From positions 2,738,501-2,802,500 of the forward strand of contig NZ_AP023410.1 in the NCBI RefSeq assembly GCF_000193495.2: 64,000 nt of DNA, in the 5' to 3' direction. This document shows positions 30,002 to 35,860 of this stretch, piece after piece. The notes beneath the pieces were generated by a model. It searched no databases and was not told the DNA's origin. It saw nothing but the letters and a program-made list of their open reading frames with translations. The translations under genes and the position numbers were made by a program. The stretch comes from Acetobacter aceti NBRC 14818. GTDB taxonomy: Bacteria > Pseudomonadota > Alphaproteobacteria > Acetobacterales > Acetobacteraceae. Positions within the stretch are counted from its first letter, which is position 1. Each line of letters begins with the position of its first letter.

Positions 30002-30460
30002 TTAAGCGGCTTGGGTAGGGCGGATTTTCATAATTTCCGTGCCAAAGCCGGTCAGTTCACCTTCCTGAGCGGTGATCTCGATAACTTCACCGCCAACCGA
30101 TGCCACAACAGGTATCTGCAGTGTTTCCAGTGTCAACAAGGCGACAATATCACCGGTTTTCACATGTGAGCCGACCGGTGCAAACGGGGCGTCACGCAAG
30201 GGATGGGTGAGAGTCAGGACGCCGAAATACGGCGTCTTTACTGCGAAGCAGGTGTCAGCAGCATCAGTTTTCTGTGACAGAGGTGGCTGCGTATGCCGGG
30301 TTTCAGACTGAGGCTCTGATTGGGAAGTCTTTATAAAAAGTCTTGTTCCATCCGGACCAGATATTTCGAATGACTCAAGTCCCGCCTGGGCGAGCATCCC
30401 GGCAATACAGGCAATATCATCCGTATCAAAAGAAGGGATTTGTGCGGCTGATCCGGTCAT
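30002..30460 (-). CDS. BCCP-like biotinyl/lipoyl-fold protein lacking the biotin lysine
   Basis: 152 residues, last gene of the leftward operon; its ATG overlaps the accC stop (ATGA). An N-terminal helix pair and a linker are followed by a biotinyl-like domain (about 70-148). VALLTLETLQIPVVASVGGE (106-125) aligns without gaps with VGLVEAMKVFNAVKAPQSGR of the neighbouring BCCP: EAMK becomes TLET, so the lysine is Thr113. The second half SVGGEVIEITAQEGELTGFG is well conserved. It therefore probably cannot be biotinylated. A structural, regulatory or partner-binding role beside the true BCCP is inference; simple decay is the other option, though the frame is intact. Confidence 0.82.
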   Translation of the reverse strand: MTGSAAQIPSFDTDDIACIAGMLAQAGLESFEISGPDGTRLFIKTSQSEPQSETRHTQPPLSQKTDAADTCFAVKTPYFGVLTLTHPLRDAPFAPVGSHVKTGDIVALLTLETLQIPVVASVGGEVIEITAQEGELTGFGTEIMKIRPTQAA

Positions 30461-31824
30461 GGTGCAGCTCTTTCTTCAAGCCATTTTTCAAGAAAGTGAA
30501 TATCCATACTGCCTTTCCGGACAGTCGGATTTGCGAGAAGGTCCTGATGCAGACCGATATTCGTCGATATGCCTTCCACCTTCATTTCCGCCAGAGCAAC
30601 CTGCAGACGTGCAATTGCTTCTTCGCGCGTCGCGCCATAGCCGATGATTTTGCCAATAAGCGAGTCATAATAAGGCGGGATCGTATAGCCAGACACGACA
30701 TGGCTATCCACCCGGATACCTGGACCGCCGGGTAGATCCCAGCGAGTCACAGTGCCGGGCGAGGGAAGGAATGTCAGACCGTCTTCTGCATTCAGGCGGC
30801 ATTCAATGGCATGACCACGAAAGACAATGTCCTCCTGTCGGATTGTCAGCCTGTCACCCTGAGCGATGCGGAGTTGCTCCGCGACAATATCGATGTCCGT
30901 GATCTGTTCCGTGACGGGATGCTCAACCTGCACACGTGTGTTCATCTCGATAAAAGCGAACACACCGTCTTCATACAAAAATTCGAATGTTCCCGCGCCA
31001 CGATAGCCAATGTGGCGGCATGCTGCGGCGCAGCGTTCACCAATCTCCGCGATAACTGCGGGATCAATGCCCGGTGGAGGCGCTTCTTCCAGAACCTTCT
31101 GATGGCGTCTCTGTAGCGAGCAGTCACGGGCGCCAAGCCAGAGAGCGGTTCCATGCGTGTCACAGAGAACCTGAATCTCGATATGACGGGGTTTCTGCAT
31201 GAATTTTTCGAGATACAGAGTCGGGTTTCCGAACGCCTGCTGGGCTTCGCGTGAGGTCAGGCCGACTGCTTCGATCAGATCTTCGGCTCGATGTACGACG
31301 CGCATTCCACGTCCACCGCCTCCGCCCGACGCTTTGACAATAACAGGAAATCCAACCTTTTCAGCCAGCGCGAGGATCTCATCAGGAGATTCCGGCAGCG
31401 GACCGTCTGATCCGGGCACGCAGGGCACGCCTGCGGCCAGCATCGTGCGTTTGGCCATGATCTTGTCGCCCATCATCCGGATTGAAGTCCCGGTCGGACC
31501 GATGAATGTCAGACCAGCTTCCTCAACAGCATCAGCGAAGTCTGCATTTTCAGAGAGAAAGCCATAGCCGGGATGAATGGCCGTAGCACCCGTCGCCCGT
31601 GCCGCCAGCAAAAGCCCGTCCCGATCCAGATAGCTGCGGGAGGCTGCTGCCGGACCAATGCACAGGGCGATGTCAGCTTCCTGCACATGGCGGCTTTCCC
31701 GATCCGCGTCCGAATAAACGGCCACAGTTTCCAGACCAAGCTGTCGACAGGCACGCTGGATACGTAACGCAATTTCACCACGATTGGCGATCAGGACTCT
31801 GTTAAAACGACGATTATCAGTCAT
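30457..31824 (-). CDS. accC: Biotin carboxylase
   Basis: 455 residues, normal for AccC. N-terminal VLIANRGEIALRIQRACRQL, ATP-grasp glycine loop KASGGGGGRGMRVV near residue 160, ATP-binding EMNTRVQVEHPVTEQITDID near 290 and the C-terminal SLIGKIIGYGATREEAIARL are all present. It carboxylates the biotin of BCCP with bicarbonate and ATP. It overlaps accB and the BCCP-like gene by four bases each. Because a YcsF/KipI/KipA operon lies next door, this may be a second, pathway-specific copy rather than the housekeeping acetyl-CoA carboxylase subunit; only the whole genome can tell. Confidence 0.94.
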   Translation of the reverse strand: MTDNRRFNRVLIANRGEIALRIQRACRQLGLETVAVYSDADRESRHVQEADIALCIGPAAASRSYLDRDGLLLAARATGATAIHPGYGFLSENADFADAVEEAGLTFIGPTGTSIRMMGDKIMAKRTMLAAGVPCVPGSDGPLPESPDEILALAEKVGFPVIVKASGGGGGRGMRVVHRAEDLIEAVGLTSREAQQAFGNPTLYLEKFMQKPRHIEIQVLCDTHGTALWLGARDCSLQRRHQKVLEEAPPPGIDPAVIAEIGERCAAACRHIGYRGAGTFEFLYEDGVFAFIEMNTRVQVEHPVTEQITDIDIVAEQLRIAQGDRLTIRQEDIVFRGHAIECRLNAEDGLTFLPSPGTVTRWDLPGGPGIRVDSHVVSGYTIPPYYDSLIGKIIGYGATREEAIARLQVALAEMKVEGISTNIGLHQDLLANPTVRKGSMDIHFLEKWLEERAAP

Positions 31825-32258
31825 GCCAGACGAAACAGGGGAGTCCCCGCCTCCACTTCAGCGCCATCTTCCACCAGAATTTCTGTAATACGCCCGGACT
31901 GGGGCGCCTTGACTGCATTGAAGACTTTCATGGCTTCAACCAGACCGACCTGCTGCCCTGCTTCCACCACATCGCCGATCTTCACATAAGCCGGTGTTCC
32001 GGGTGAGGGCGAGATATGGAAAACGCCGTAGGTCGGTGAAGGAATGACCTGCTCTACGGGCTGAGAAACGGCAACAGTATCTGTTGTCTTTTGGGGTGTA
32101 GTTTCGCTCGGCGTGAGCTGCGTGACGGGAGAAGTCATCGCAGCATTGCCGGTCCCCCGGGTCAGCCTGATTTTCCATCCGCTTTCTTCGAGCTCAAGTT
32201 CGTCGATCGGAGAACGAGCGAGCAGATCTATCAAATGCTGAATCCGCGGGATGTCCAT
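31821..32258 (-). CDS. accB: Biotin carboxyl carrier protein
   Basis: 145 residues. N-terminal helical part (IQHLIDLLARSPIDELELEE), a Thr/Gln-rich linker and a C-terminal biotinyl domain with the modification motif VGLVEAMKVFNAVKAP; the biotin lysine is Lys111. It carries carboxybiotin from AccC to a carboxyltransferase. It starts five bases after the SDR gene and its stop overlaps accC. No accA or accD gene is in the window; the adjacent KipI/KipA-type genes are alternative candidates for the carboxyltransferase. Confidence 0.93.
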   Translation of the reverse strand: MDIPRIQHLIDLLARSPIDELELEESGWKIRLTRGTGNAAMTSPVTQLTPSETTPQKTTDTVAVSQPVEQVIPSPTYGVFHISPSPGTPAYVKIGDVVEAGQQVGLVEAMKVFNAVKAPQSGRITEILVEDGAEVEAGTPLFRLA

Positions 32259-32263
32259 TGTTT

Positions 32264-33019
32264 TCAGACCTTGTCGGCGGTTTTCTTTGCGAAGTTCAGT
32301 CCACCCACGACCTGCATGGTTGGCAGAACTTCCATGAAACTGACATTCATGCGTGACGGTGCGAGCACAGCAAAAGCCACTGAATTCGCGATATCTTCCG
32401 GCAGAAGCGATTCATATTCATCGAAAAACCGCTTTTTCGCTTCGGCCATGTCGCCAATCAGGCGACCGAAGACTTCCGTCTCCACGCGAGCCGGGGAGAT
32501 TTCGGTGACGCGGATATGATGCCCGAACAGATCACAGCGAAGCTGCTGGGAAAGGGAGTGAACGCCAGCCTTCGTTGCATGATAGACCGTGTTGCCGCCC
32601 GCGAAAGCGTAATGGCCCGCAATGGAGCTGATGTTGACGATATGTCCGCGATCCCGCTGCATCATTCCCGGCACAACAAGTGCGGTCAGTTGCAGGACTG
32701 CCCGAAGGTTCACATCAACTAGCGCGTCAATGTCCTCCGGTGTCGTCTTTGTGATGTTGCCTGTGCGGGACTGCCCGGCATTGTTGATCAGCACATCGAC
32801 TTCAATGTCCTTGATGAGTGCTTCAATGCCTTTCTGGTCCGCCACACTGACAGCGTGAGGGATGCAGCCAGTCTCTTCCGCCAGCTGCGCCAGACGCTTC
32901 TCGTCACGGGCCACGGCATGGACTTCCAGACCGGCTTCCCTGAGCCGCCTGACAATCGCCGCACCGATTCCGGAGGAAGCGCCTGTAACGAGAGCGTTAC
33001 GATACGGCTGACTGCTCAT
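32264..33019 (-). CDS. SDR family NAD(P)-dependent oxidoreductase
   Basis: 251 residues from the ATG at 33017-33019. Rossmann motif ALVTGASSGIGAAIVRRL, then LINNAGQSRTGNI near residue 85, active-site serine in NISSIAGHYAFAGG and YHATK (Tyr/Lys) near 152-156. The family reduces or oxidises small alcohols and ketones; clade resembles YdfG/serine-3-dehydrogenase-like enzymes, but the substrate is not determinable. First gene of the leftward operon with accB-accC-BCCP-like, which suggests that it acts in the same pathway. Confidence 0.9.
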   Translation of the reverse strand: MSSQPYRNALVTGASSGIGAAIVRRLREAGLEVHAVARDEKRLAQLAEETGCIPHAVSVADQKGIEALIKDIEVDVLINNAGQSRTGNITKTTPEDIDALVDVNLRAVLQLTALVVPGMMQRDRGHIVNISSIAGHYAFAGGNTVYHATKAGVHSLSQQLRCDLFGHHIRVTEISPARVETEVFGRLIGDMAEAKKRFFDEYESLLPEDIANSVAFAVLAPSRMNVSFMEVLPTMQVVGGLNFAKKTADKV

Positions 33020-33363
33020 GTTGATTATCCCGGTTCTGAAACAAAAAAAGTGCTCTATCCGCAAGGAAAACAAGCGGAATTGAGAGTTCTGCGATGATGC
33101 TAGTATCGTAACGATTCCAGCGCCAAGAGCAGTTCGTTCTCACGTCATAAGATAATACTATACCGCCGGCCCGCTCTTCACGACCTATAAGATTATCCGA
33201 TGGCCTCACATCCGGAAGAGGGCTGGAAATCATTTCGAAAACAATTCTATTTTCCATAATGGGCACTGAGCGGTGTTCCGGATTGGAAATTAGCTTTTCC
33301 TGAGCGGTTCCGGCGTTCCTTTTGTGAAGGCGGCACTGGGAAGACAGGACTGGACCGTGTATT
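33020..33363. promoter_or_regulatory. Divergent control region between SDR-acc and pxp operons
   Basis: 344 bp between divergent starts, expected to hold both promoters. Two direct repeats of ATAAGAT (33147-33153 and 33187-33193), exactly 40 bp apart, in the contexts CATAAGATAAT and TATAAGATTAT, are candidate regulator sites. No coding frame is supported. Confidence 0.45.
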
Positions 33364-34089
33364 TTGAATGATGGCATGACAGATACTTCGGAACGCAGCA
33401 TCATCCTGTCAGATCAGAAATCCGGTCCGGCCGGTGATCAAGCGCCGGTCATCAGCATGATTGGCACCAAGGCGATGCTGTTTGAAGCGCCGGGTGCTTT
33501 CACGATGGCGCATCAGCGTCGCATCTGGGCTTTGATCGAGGCCGCTGAAAGCCGCAGCGACGTTCAGGAACTTATTCCGGGCGTCACGAATCTGATGCTC
33601 GTTTTCAAGATGCCTCCGAAAGATCCGGAGCAGATTGCTGCATGGCTGCGTCACGCCTGGGACACGCTGCCTGAGCGACACATCAAGGGGCGTCTGTTCG
33701 AGATTGGTGTCCAGTACGGCGGCGGACTCGGTGAGGATCTTCAGCGTGTCGCAGATCATGCCGGTTTGACGCCGGAGGAAGTGATCTCCATTCACCACGG
33801 TAATGAATACACGGTCTGCGCCATCGGGAGTGCTCCCGGTTTTGGCTATCTGCACGGTCTCGATCCGCGTATCGCTACTCCACGGAAATCGGTTCCGTCC
33901 CTGCATATGCTGGCCGGAACTGTCACGATCGGCGGGATGCAGGCAGGCATTTCGGCCCTGACCGGACCGAATGGCTGGAACTCGATCGGTTTTACGGAAA
34001 TCACGCTGTTCGATCCGATGAAGGAGCCACCAGCTTTGTTTGCGATCGGAGATCGTATTCGTTTCTATCCTGAGAGTATCGTGCTGTGA
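33364..34089 (+). CDS. pxpB: 5-oxoprolinase subunit B / KipI family (AHS1 domain)
   Basis: 241 residues. After about 30 polar residues comes the AHS1/KipI fold, with VTNLMLVFKMPP near residue 75, RLFEIGVQYGGGLGEDLQRV near 112, APGFGYLHGLDPRIATPRK near 155 and GMQAGISALTGPNGWNSIG near 200, all conserved. In Escherichia coli and Bacillus the PxpABC complex opens 5-oxoproline to glutamate using ATP; the same domain is part of urea carboxylase. The start codon region is weak (no clear ribosome binding site), and an ATG at 33376 could be used instead. Overlaps pxpC. Confidence 0.9.
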   Translation: MNDGMTDTSERSIILSDQKSGPAGDQAPVISMIGTKAMLFEAPGAFTMAHQRRIWALIEAAESRSDVQELIPGVTNLMLVFKMPPKDPEQIAAWLRHAWDTLPERHIKGRLFEIGVQYGGGLGEDLQRVADHAGLTPEEVISIHHGNEYTVCAIGSAPGFGYLHGLDPRIATPRKSVPSLHMLAGTVTIGGMQAGISALTGPNGWNSIGFTEITLFDPMKEPPALFAIGDRIRFYPESIVL

Positions 34090-35096
34090 TCACCGTTCTC
34101 GAAACATCACCGCTGAATACCGTTCAGGATTGCGGCAGACCCGGTTATCGTAATCTTGGTGTCGGCAGCTCGGGTGTCATGGATATGCTGGCGCTACGTG
34201 CCGGGAATATTCTGCTCGAAAACCAGCCTGACGATGCCTGTATCGAGTTGCAGACTTTTCCTTTTCTGCTGCGTTTTGATGCGCCTGCCAGCTTCGCCGT
34301 CACCGGGATAGACGCCGACATGGAACTGGACGGACAAAAGCTCCTGCCCTGGTCGGCAGTCACGGCTTCTGCCGGACAGACACTCCGTATCGGACCGCCG
34401 CGTACTGGCGCACGAGGATATGTCTGCGTGGCAGGCGGCATTGATGTTCCGGTCACACTCGGTTCGCGCAGCACGCAGCTTCGTGGTGGCTTTGGGGGCC
34501 TGTCCGGACGTTTTCTGGAGACAGGCGACACGCTGGGTATTCGTTCCGGGGGTGCTTCCTGCTCTGGTTATGCGGTGCTTCCGCCATCGGTGGCTTTGAA
34601 AAACGGAAATGATACCGAGACGCCGGGCATTGTGACGCTCCGTTTTATCCCGGCGACAGATTATCTGCTGTTTACCGAGCAATCCCGTGCGATTTTTCAG
34701 AATTGCGAGTGGAAAATCACGCCACAGAGCAACCGGGTCGGATATCGGCTGAGCGGGGACAAACTTCAGCTTACAAACCCTGTGGAATTGCGTTCCTACG
34801 GGATTGTGCCGGGCATTGTGCAGGTGCCCCCCGCTGGAGAACCGATCGTGCAGATGGCGGACGCCAACACGGCAGGTGGCTATCCCCGTATCGCTACGGT
34901 CATCGAGGCGGATCTCTGGCGGCTCGCTCAGGCGCGGATCGGCTCCCGCATCCGTTTTCAGGAATGCAGTTACGAGGAAGGGGTTGACGCCATGCGGCCT
35001 GTCGAAGCCTGGCTTGAAAACATGAAGCTGATGGTCAGCCGTTATCGTAATTCCTGTATGCGTCGAGAGTCCGGAAAGGCCGGAGGCAAGAAATGA
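34086..35096 (+). CDS. pxpC: 5-oxoprolinase subunit C / KipA, biotin-dependent carboxyltransferase family (AHS2 domain)
   Basis: 336 residues from a GTG at 34086 that overlaps the pxpB stop. Family motifs: TVQDCGRPGYRNLGVGSSGV near residue 10, DMLALRAGNILLENQPDDAC, YVCVAGGIDVPVTLGSRST near 115, NRVGYRLSGDKLQL near 220 and IVQMADANTAGGYPRIA near 255. It forms the PxpBC complex with PxpB; the AHS2 domain is also the carboxyltransferase half of urea carboxylase. The last ~20 residues are basic and variable. Overlaps pxpA by four bases. Confidence 0.92.
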   Translation: MITVLETSPLNTVQDCGRPGYRNLGVGSSGVMDMLALRAGNILLENQPDDACIELQTFPFLLRFDAPASFAVTGIDADMELDGQKLLPWSAVTASAGQTLRIGPPRTGARGYVCVAGGIDVPVTLGSRSTQLRGGFGGLSGRFLETGDTLGIRSGGASCSGYAVLPPSVALKNGNDTETPGIVTLRFIPATDYLLFTEQSRAIFQNCEWKITPQSNRVGYRLSGDKLQLTNPVELRSYGIVPGIVQVPPAGEPIVQMADANTAGGYPRIATVIEADLWRLAQARIGSRIRFQECSYEEGVDAMRPVEAWLENMKLMVSRYRNSCMRRESGKAGGKK

Positions 35097-35860
35097 AGAT
35101 TGATCTCAATTCCGACATGGGCGAAGGCTTCGGCCGCTGGACAATGGCCGATGATGACGCGCTGATGGGGCTGATCTCGTCCGCCAATATCGCCTGTGGT
35201 TATCATGCCGGTGATTACGCGATCATGGATCACACCGTCAGGCTGGCGAAAGAAAAGGGCGTTGGGATCGGAGCGCATCCGGGTCTGCCTGATCTTATCG
35301 GTTTTGGCAGACGCACCATGGTTGTTTCCGATACGGATATGGAAGCCATGCTGGCCTGTCAGATCGGTGCCCTTCAGGGGGTCGCCGCCCGTCACGGCCA
35401 TCGTGTCACGCATGTGAGCTATCATGCCGCTTTCGGCACCATGGCCAATGAGAATGACGATCGTGCCCTGCGACTGGTTCGGGTAATTGCGGCTCTTGAT
35501 AAGGATCTGACGGTCTTTTGCATGCCCGGCCAGCCAACTGAGCGGGCCGCCGAAAAAGTCGGATTGAAAACACACACCCTGTTTCTTGCTGATCGGGCCT
35601 ACACTGCTGCCGGAACGCTGGTGCCGCGTGGTCAACCGGGCGCGGTGATTCATGATCTTGCAGGCGTGCGCGCCCGTGTCAGGCAGTTTCTTGAAGATGG
35701 TTTAGTGACAACGATTGACGGCGTGCGGATGCCGGTGAAGGCACGTTCGATCCTGGTTCATAGCGACACACCGGGTTCGCTCGAGATCGCAAAAGCCATT
35801 CGCGGCGAGATGGATGCCTGTGGAGCGGTGCTGACGCCAGCGCACAGACTGAACGACTGA
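35093..35860 (+). CDS. pxpA: 5-oxoprolinase subunit A (LamB/YcsF family)
   Basis: 255 residues, normal for YcsF/PxpA. IDLNSDMGEGFGRWTMADDD at the N-terminus, SANIACGYHAGDYAIMDHTV near 40, GVGIGAHPGLPDLIGFGRR near 65, EVFADRAYT-like FLADRAYTAAGTLVPRGQPGAVI near 165-185 and ILVHSDTPGSLEIA near 220 are the family blocks. It works with PxpBC in ATP-dependent cleavage of 5-oxoproline. Coupled to pxpC through ATGA; a sugar-free cytoplasmic enzyme. Confidence 0.93.
   Translation: MKIDLNSDMGEGFGRWTMADDDALMGLISSANIACGYHAGDYAIMDHTVRLAKEKGVGIGAHPGLPDLIGFGRRTMVVSDTDMEAMLACQIGALQGVAARHGHRVTHVSYHAAFGTMANENDDRALRLVRVIAALDKDLTVFCMPGQPTERAAEKVGLKTHTLFLADRAYTAAGTLVPRGQPGAVIHDLAGVRARVRQFLEDGLVTTIDGVRMPVKARSILVHSDTPGSLEIAKAIRGEMDACGAVLTPAHRLND

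Follow-up and report, generated by a model that had tools for sequence, protein, structure and literature searches.

In a 64,000-nucleotide stretch of the Acetobacter aceti NBRC 14818 genome (NZ_AP023410.1:2,738,501-2,802,500; hereafter the window, to whose positions the coordinates in Table 1 refer), two divergent gene groups bring together the three proteins of the PxpABC 5-oxoprolinase, a biotin carboxylase with its carrier, and a second carrier-like protein devoid of the biotin lysine, which we call BCCP2 (BCCP, biotin carboxyl carrier protein). The group formed by a short-chain dehydrogenase/reductase (SDR), accB, accC and BCCP2 diverges from pxpB-pxpC-pxpA, and the genes are joined by junctions of 4-5 bases in the list of open reading frames (ORFs). 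This arrangement had been described in an earlier note on the same DNA (as SDR-accB-accC-BCCP-like against KipI-KipA-YcsF), and the ORF list and the family models agree with it. AccC passes the accC equivalog model (660.7 bits, cut-off 626.5) and AccB lies slightly below the one for BCCP (105.9 bits, cut-off 115.2). PxpB passes TIGR00370 (170.8 vs 145.55 bits), PxpA passes NF003814 (315.9 vs 226 bits) and BCCP2 passes PF00364 (26.9 vs 22.1 bits), while PxpC passes TIGR00724 (293.3 vs 230.2 bits) and falls short of the curated PxpC equivalog NF045499 (279.2 vs 500 bits). None of the cluster proteins reached the TIGR02712 (urea carboxylase) cut-off, and the scan of ten proteins at the locus gave no match to any other carboxyltransferase family. 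The promoter and terminator scan stayed close to chance (6 vs 5.0 expected and 7 vs 8.2 expected).

Table 1. Genes of the cluster and its neighbours in the window.
Feature	Start	End	Strand	Basis
BCCP2 (BCCP-like, without the biotin lysine; Thr113 there)	30002	30460	-	ORF, PF00364, alignment, predicted structure
AccC-type biotin carboxylase, second copy of the genome	30457	31824	-	4-base overlap with BCCP2; family models
AccB-type biotin carrier, motif EAMK (Lys111)	31821	32258	-	4-base overlap with AccC; family models
SDR oxidoreductase, conserved cluster member	32264	33019	-	5-base gap to AccB; best model YdfG-type, below cut-off
PxpB/KipI (AHS1, CT_C_D), Arg174 at the urea carboxylase Lys position	33364	34089	+	family models, alignment
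PxpC/KipA (AHS2, CT_A_B)	34086	35096	+	4-base overlap with PxpB; nearest solved structure E. coli YbgJK (5dud)
PxpA/YcsF (LamB_YcsF)	35093	35860	+	4-base overlap with PxpC; only PF03746 match of the genome
Aspartate-type aminotransferase, conserved cluster neighbour	28465	29667	+	family models, loci of relatives
EamA/DMT permease, neighbour in acetic acid bacteria	36005	36934	+	family models, loci of relatives
MFS transporter, neighbour in acetic acid bacteria	36995	38257	+	family models, loci of relatives

BCCP2 aligns with AccB over its full length, the N-terminal part included, where its profile also matches the AccB of 4hr7. At the biotin position a lysine is present in 99/100 aligned AccB copies and in 0/93 BCCP2 copies (the two groups were told apart by profile score and comprise 97 and 90 distinct ends, respectively; the counts exclude 21 weaker rows, which are chiefly of fused or urea-carboxylase carriers). 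The AlphaFold2 model of BCCP2 has a BCCP domain at residues 71-150 (predicted local distance difference test, pLDDT, 95-98; chain mean 85.1; predicted template modelling score, pTM, 0.55) and is closest to biotinyl domains (1bdo); 39/49 BCCP2 members match PF00364 at E 0.001. The earlier note, which called the protein 'BCCP-like', missed both the loss of the biotin lysine and its standing as a conserved second carrier-like subunit. The ratios of nonsynonymous to synonymous substitution rates (dN/dS) against two Acetobacter relatives were 0.25 and 0.17 for BCCP2 and 0.47 and 0.25 for AccB, and by these sequence comparisons BCCP2 is under purifying selection. We discarded the idea of a decaying pseudogene on account of the open frames of 126-161 amino acids in 83 distinct copies and of finite dN/dS values (0.17-0.49; two of seven pairs saturated). 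BCCP2 is, as judged from the alignments, a conserved protein without a lysine to carry biotin. The sole AccB-classed copy lacking the lysine is the second carrier of locus L201 (5779-12096), which holds two BCCPs; this carrier scores nearer AccB and would perhaps represent an independent origin of a dummy carrier. Public plasmid records label BCCP2 as acetyl-CoA carboxylase (carrier), biotin/lipoyl-containing or hypothetical protein.

The linkage was followed in nine relatives of the same family, examined around BCCP2-type matches (L052-L060; the second carrier of L058 was found through an AccB query), eight of which have PxpA, PxpB, PxpC, AccB, AccC and BCCP2 all together. The arrangement varies, being divergent in the acetic acid bacteria and a single operon in deeper relatives: L058-L060 carry accB-accC-pxpB-pxpC-BCCP2-pxpA-SDR on a single strand, and L057 has the order accB-pxpB-pxpC-BCCP2-pxpA-accC. 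Transposase-like ORFs were noticed by eye near L055. A profile search of the contigs of the genomes with a PxpC alignment, from which the best 80 of 411 relatives were kept (loci chosen by similarity to the window group, hence not an even sample), recovered all six subunits in 73/80 loci, accompanied by the SDR in 71 and by the aminotransferase in 69 of these 73. The genera covered by the 80 include Acetobacter, Komagataeibacter, Gluconobacter, Gluconacetobacter, Novacetimonas, Variovorax, Bradyrhizobium, Caballeronia and Roseibium. Among the incomplete loci, L075, L097, L110, L113 and L115 are short and reach contig ends, and in L102 AccC begins at the locus edge with no AccB inside the locus. 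Ten Bradyrhizobium loci (L112, L114, L121, L123, L124, L126, L128, L129, L131 and L133) hold two PxpBC pairs, one adjoining PxpA and the other standing with accBC and BCCP2. These counts are to be read knowing that the window and L052-L060 supplied the sequences for the subunit profiles (which diverged subunits may escape), that several loci end at contig ends, and that L054/L093, L056/L119 and L059/L130 look like the same genomes reached twice. Considering that the gene set recurs across many genera in differing arrangements, its linkage is more than chance; the survey of accB/accC with pxpABC proposed in the earlier note therefore came out in favour of conservation.

Searching 398 genomes of the phylum with the BCCP2 profile gave at least 385 with a match, a count that is uninformative on BCCP2, as the profile also matches the ordinary AccB genes of the window genome. 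Six further top-match regions were examined (a seventh only extended G340): three are BCCP2 loci (L253, L256, L257), and the other three (L254, L255, L258) hold accBC with a biotin-type AccB, with no Pxp genes found.

Even sampling placed the cluster among its wider kin. A draw of 159 phylum genomes (completeness >=97%) contained 75 with a PF02626 match and 105 matches in all, 70 in frames <1100 amino acids (window included) and 35 in urea-carboxylase-length frames; we examined 69 of the 70 (all except the window) and 11 of the 35. Biotin carboxylase linkage was seen in 17/69 stand-alone PxpC loci. Five of the 69 (L179, L180, L182, L184, L187) are of a kind that we term Lys-type, after the residue discussed below, and nine (L190, L197, L203, L204, L206, L207, L208, L217, L224) have a biotin carboxylase gene beside PxpBC. 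In eight of these nine PxpB and PxpC are fused (L190, L203, L204, L206, L207, L208, L217, L224), with an Arg-type motif and PxpA nearby, and in eight (exception L207) a BCCP-type match falls on the carboxylase frame. Three loci have two BCCPs (L178, L201, L210) and one (L188) has BCCP2 but no accBC. A second draw, of 120 genomes from the family to which the window belongs, gave 45 PF02682 matches, 37 in frames <1100 amino acids, nine of them in the window or in loci already examined. The 18 stronger of the other 28 were inspected, and comprise 5 with accBC and BCCP2 (L267, L268, L270, L272, L273), 3 Lys-type (L276, L277, L279), 8 without accBC and 2 truncated by the end of a contig, of which L274 has accBC and L278 the Lys motif. 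L188 (3673-10083) and L253 (3553-13606) keep PxpBCA, BCCP2, the SDR and the aminotransferase in another family (f49), which we take to be enteric bacteria; L253 also holds genes for an amino-acid ABC transporter and for a regulator resembling LysR.

The A. aceti genome (G000; 3.69 Mb, 5 contigs) carries, at C1:1134.9-1136.5 kb, a further accBC pair with an AccC that outscores the one in the window (719.3 vs 660.4 bits). The window accBC is a second copy, neither the sole nor the housekeeping pair of the genome, which settles the question, raised with the linkage survey, of a separate housekeeping copy. Elsewhere in the genome lies a 1179-amino-acid urea carboxylase (1813.4 bits, equivalog cut-off 1303.85), followed after 41 bases by a 600-amino-acid allophanate hydrolase (768.4 bits, cut-off 511.05). 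Since the two PF02682 matches of the genome belong to the window PxpB and to this urea carboxylase, the window PxpB is its only stand-alone PxpB. One hydantoinase-B-type gene is also present, and another lactam-opening enzyme in the genome is therefore possible.

Within AHS1, one column separates the urea carboxylases from plain PxpB proteins. The lysine of urea carboxylase at this column (K. lactis Lys1605) is, according to PMC5770610, most likely the general base; we located it by counting on the 5i8i alignment as the K of TKYNPSR. It is present in 12/12 urea carboxylases and 5/5 Lys-type clusters, and an arginine occupies the column in plain PxpB (51/51), E. coli PxpB and the fused type (9/9), counts that leave out the 80 loci of the PxpC contig search; the arginine is a feature found here and not a published PxpABC criterion. 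The PxpC tree (FastTree, 109 of 184 sequences) separates three biotin-linked groups, with support of 1.0 for the Lys-type, 1.0 for the fused type and only 0.50 for the window group. Besides L188 and L253, the latter takes in L095, L196 (a plain locus) and, from L112, the second pair, which is linked to PxpA; it adjoins the group holding E. coli PxpC. When the AccC tree is rooted on urea carboxylase, window-type AccC falls among housekeeping AccC, and two of four housekeeping AccC lie inside the smallest window-type clade (support 0.76). It thus seems, from the two trees, that the linkage to biotin carboxylase has arisen, or has been kept, more than once. Two biotin carboxylase motif patterns of our own making were both found in 26/28 window-group AccC, a weak check, as one of them fails in the housekeeping AccC of the genome.

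Several known systems share parts of this gene set. The PxpABC 5-oxoprolinase (E. coli YbgJKL; B. subtilis and C. glutamicum pxpABC) consists of the same three proteins as in the window, E. coli PxpB has the same arginine and the window PxpC model is nearest E. coli YbgJK (5dud); the window differs by adding its own AccB, AccC and a biotin-less BCCP, and by a PxpC under the equivalog cut-off. Urea carboxylase/urea amidolyase (K. lactis, TIGR02712) has the domain types biotin carboxylase, AHS2, AHS1 and BCCP in common with the window, in that order in one chain, whereas the window has separate genes. It needs a biotin carboxylase and a biotinylatable BCCP, both of which the window has (AccC over its cut-off, AccB with EAMK); in place of its lysine and allophanate hydrolase, the window has an arginine and PxpA, with the dummy BCCP as an extra. 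The Lys-type clusters, ordered PxpA-BCCP-BC-AHS1-AHS2 (BC, biotin carboxylase; L179, L180, L184, L187) or PxpA-BC-AHS1-AHS2-BCCP (L276, L277, L279), resemble the window in having biotin carboxylase genes with AHS1, AHS2 and PxpA, and differ from it in the urea-carboxylase lysine of AHS1 and in a single biotin-type BCCP, with no BCCP2 seen (L182 ends at a contig end before any BCCP or PxpA). On their sequences, an enzyme resembling a split urea carboxylase in the true sense would more likely be found among them than in the window, and the P. aeruginosa operon PA0492-PA0496 may belong with them.

Two further systems bear on how the subunits might meet. PDB 9yx5, known to us from its entry title ('Structure of the long chain acyl-CoA carboxylase complex from Mycobacterium smegmatis with MSMEG_0435-MSMEG_0436 bound'), chain names and alignment, contains AHS2 and AHS1 chains, stands among entries with AccA3 and has an Arg-type AHS1 motif. 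An Arg-type pair can therefore bind a biotin carboxylase complex, although M. smegmatis AccA3 is one biotin carboxylase-BCCP chain within an acyl-CoA carboxylase, unlike the separate AccB and AccC of the window, and the bound pair might be an inhibitor. The plant BADC resemble BCCP and have lost the biotin motif; PMC11926652 reports that they act as assembly glue. BCCP2 is likened to them by description: BCCP-like, stripped of the biotin motif and kept with a biotin carboxylase and a BCCP. The plant proteins serve the plastid acetyl-CoA carboxylase, whereas BCCP2 is put with PxpBC. Its occurrence fits the BADC-like pattern, in which a protein of BCCP fold that lacks the biotin lysine accompanies a biotin carboxylase and a biotinylatable BCCP; L188 and L253, with no biotin carboxylase nearby, are exceptions. 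A comparison with Aspergillus lamA/lamB was dropped, since the literature search yielded nothing usable.

We tentatively favour, with confidence somewhat short of even, the reading that the products of the seven genes form a single enzyme of several subunits, a biotin-linked version of the lactam-opening PxpABC with BCCP2 as an assembly subunit. The sequences themselves show the gene set and its conservation, the lost lysine of BCCP2, the biotin motif of AccB and the arginine of PxpB; the physical complex, the carboxyl transfer, the lactam substrate and the scaffold role of BCCP2 are what we infer from the comparisons. In favour of this reading stand the 73/80 loci with all six subunits and their shifting gene order, the presence of accBC in addition to a higher-scoring pair, the lysine kept by AccB and lost from a BCCP2 that is under purifying selection and predicted to fold as a BCCP, and the precedents of PDB 9yx5 and plant BADC. 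AccC, using ATP and bicarbonate, would carboxylate the biotin on Lys111 of AccB; PxpB and PxpC would take the carboxyl group from AccB and activate a lactam such as 5-oxoproline or a substituted form of it, for which N-carboxylation is the simplest route, and PxpA would hydrolyse the activated ring. The resulting N-carboxy amino acid would give off CO2 and the amino acid would pass to the neighbouring aminotransferase and SDR, for a net ATP use equal to that of PxpABC. BCCP2, unable to carry biotin, would assemble AccB/AccC on the PxpBC pair, a role suggested because of the glue function reported for plant BADC, and in L188 and L253 might, as a guess, recruit the housekeeping AccBC. A biotin-dependent lactamase proper, in which carboxybiotin N-carboxylates the lactam, PxpA hydrolyses it, CO2 is released and a BADC-like dummy carrier holds the complex, we consider rather unlikely; if true, biotin and bicarbonate would act as a recyclable activating group.

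A number of observations weigh against the biotin-linked variant. In the even phylum draw, 51/69 stand-alone PxpC loci have no biotin carboxylase within ~8.5 kb (less at contig ends), and L095 has PxpBC and PxpA but no accBC. L055 (7705-11537; genome G022) keeps accBC, BCCP2, PxpA and the SDR as open frames with no PxpB/PxpC in the stretch, nor is there a PxpB match anywhere in genome G022; it is either a decaying locus or one that functions without PxpBC. The main counter-evidence comes from L188 and L253, where the examined stretch (~8-10 kb on either side) holds no accB/accC and where, across these genomes, AccC is strongly matched by one accC-length gene and by urea-carboxylase-length frames. 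The AHS1 column has arginine in 14/14 of the window group and in both L188 and L253 (2/2); at the 9 PxpB columns separating plain PxpB from urea carboxylase the window group is 90% plain and 0% urea carboxylase, and at 6 discriminating PxpC columns 80% plain and 2% urea carboxylase. For plant BADC, inhibition instead of assembly has also been proposed (PMC11926652). Much of this is shared by another explanation, in which PxpABC works as the usual lactam hydrolase, driven by ATP and free of biotin (PxpBC phosphorylate the lactam, PxpA opens it), BCCP2 serves PxpBC in a structural or regulatory capacity, and AccBC is an accessory that carboxylates another metabolite of the pathway or tunes activity to bicarbonate. 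We hold it to be a serious, if doubtful, possibility: the plain-type arginine and discriminating residues of the window PxpB, the adjacency of its PxpC group to that of E. coli and the retention of BCCP2 without accBC nearby in L188 and L253 are in line with it, as is the phosphorylation of 5-oxoproline by PxpB and PxpC, which is assumed for plain PxpABC (PMC13274462). It accounts less well for accBC standing inside or beside the operon in several gene orders, for the want of another carboxyltransferase match among those ten scanned proteins, and for the ten two-pair Bradyrhizobium loci, where BCCP2 and accBC go together with one PxpBC pair. As between carboxyl transfer and phosphorylation, the arginine and L188/L253 favour the latter and the accBC linkage elsewhere the former.

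That accBC might be an extra acetyl-CoA carboxylase pair serving fatty acid synthesis, and stand beside pxpABC only incidentally, agrees with the equivalog match of AccC and with its place among housekeeping-type AccC, and is hardly probable given the linkage conserved over genera and orders in differing arrangements and the other accBC of the genome. Every urea carboxylase domain type is present as a separate protein, which speaks for a true split urea carboxylase (or guanidine-type) enzyme carboxylating urea or a small amide; we judge such an enzyme very improbable, as the lysine is absent in 14/14 window-group PxpB (vs present in 12/12 urea carboxylases) and the genome has its own urea carboxylase and allophanate hydrolase side by side. 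Urea as the substrate was discarded on the same grounds, both of these enzymes exceeding their equivalog cut-offs. The proposal of the earlier note, that separate biotin carboxylase and BCCP serve the AHS1/AHS2 pair, consequently survives in part: the conserved linkage with PxpA, the existence of another accBC in the genome and the pair bound to a biotin carboxylase complex in PDB 9yx5 speak for it, while its label 'urea-carboxylase-like' is not supported, in view of the arginine, the plain-type PxpB and PxpC positions and the urea carboxylase and allophanate hydrolase of the genome.

Extra 'acetyl-CoA carboxylase' subunit genes lie beside pxpABC in many genomes (the 17/69 loci of the even draw), and such copies are read as fatty-acid genes in PMC6249292 and PMC12427679. 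Lombard and Moreira (PMC3199775) asked if stand-alone AHS1/AHS2 homologues retain a more ancient function or join forces with other biotin carboxylases, a question that the Arg-type and Lys-type clusters make testable; a conserved carrier without the cofactor site would, moreover, be a bacterial counterpart of plant BADC. In the literature searched (listings and passages, most subscription papers lying outside) no description of a biotin-linked PxpABC or of BCCP2 was found; what would be new here is the PxpABC variant with its conserved dummy carrier, BCCP2 above all.

The surroundings of the cluster offer hints at a pathway. Some relatives have amino-acid ABC transporter genes beside it (binding proteins below the model cut-offs), some have a regulator annotated as Nac nearby, and the regulator beside the cluster in some relatives is, from its sequence, presumably LysR-type. 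The neighbours would fit an amino-acid lactam that is transaminated after ring opening, and is perhaps hydroxylated. On a Burkholderia pyrrocinia plasmid (L261, 10133-14692) the cluster is followed by genes for an RraA-family protein, phosphoenolpyruvate (PEP) carboxylase and D-glycerate dehydrogenase, which may hint at the same pathway.

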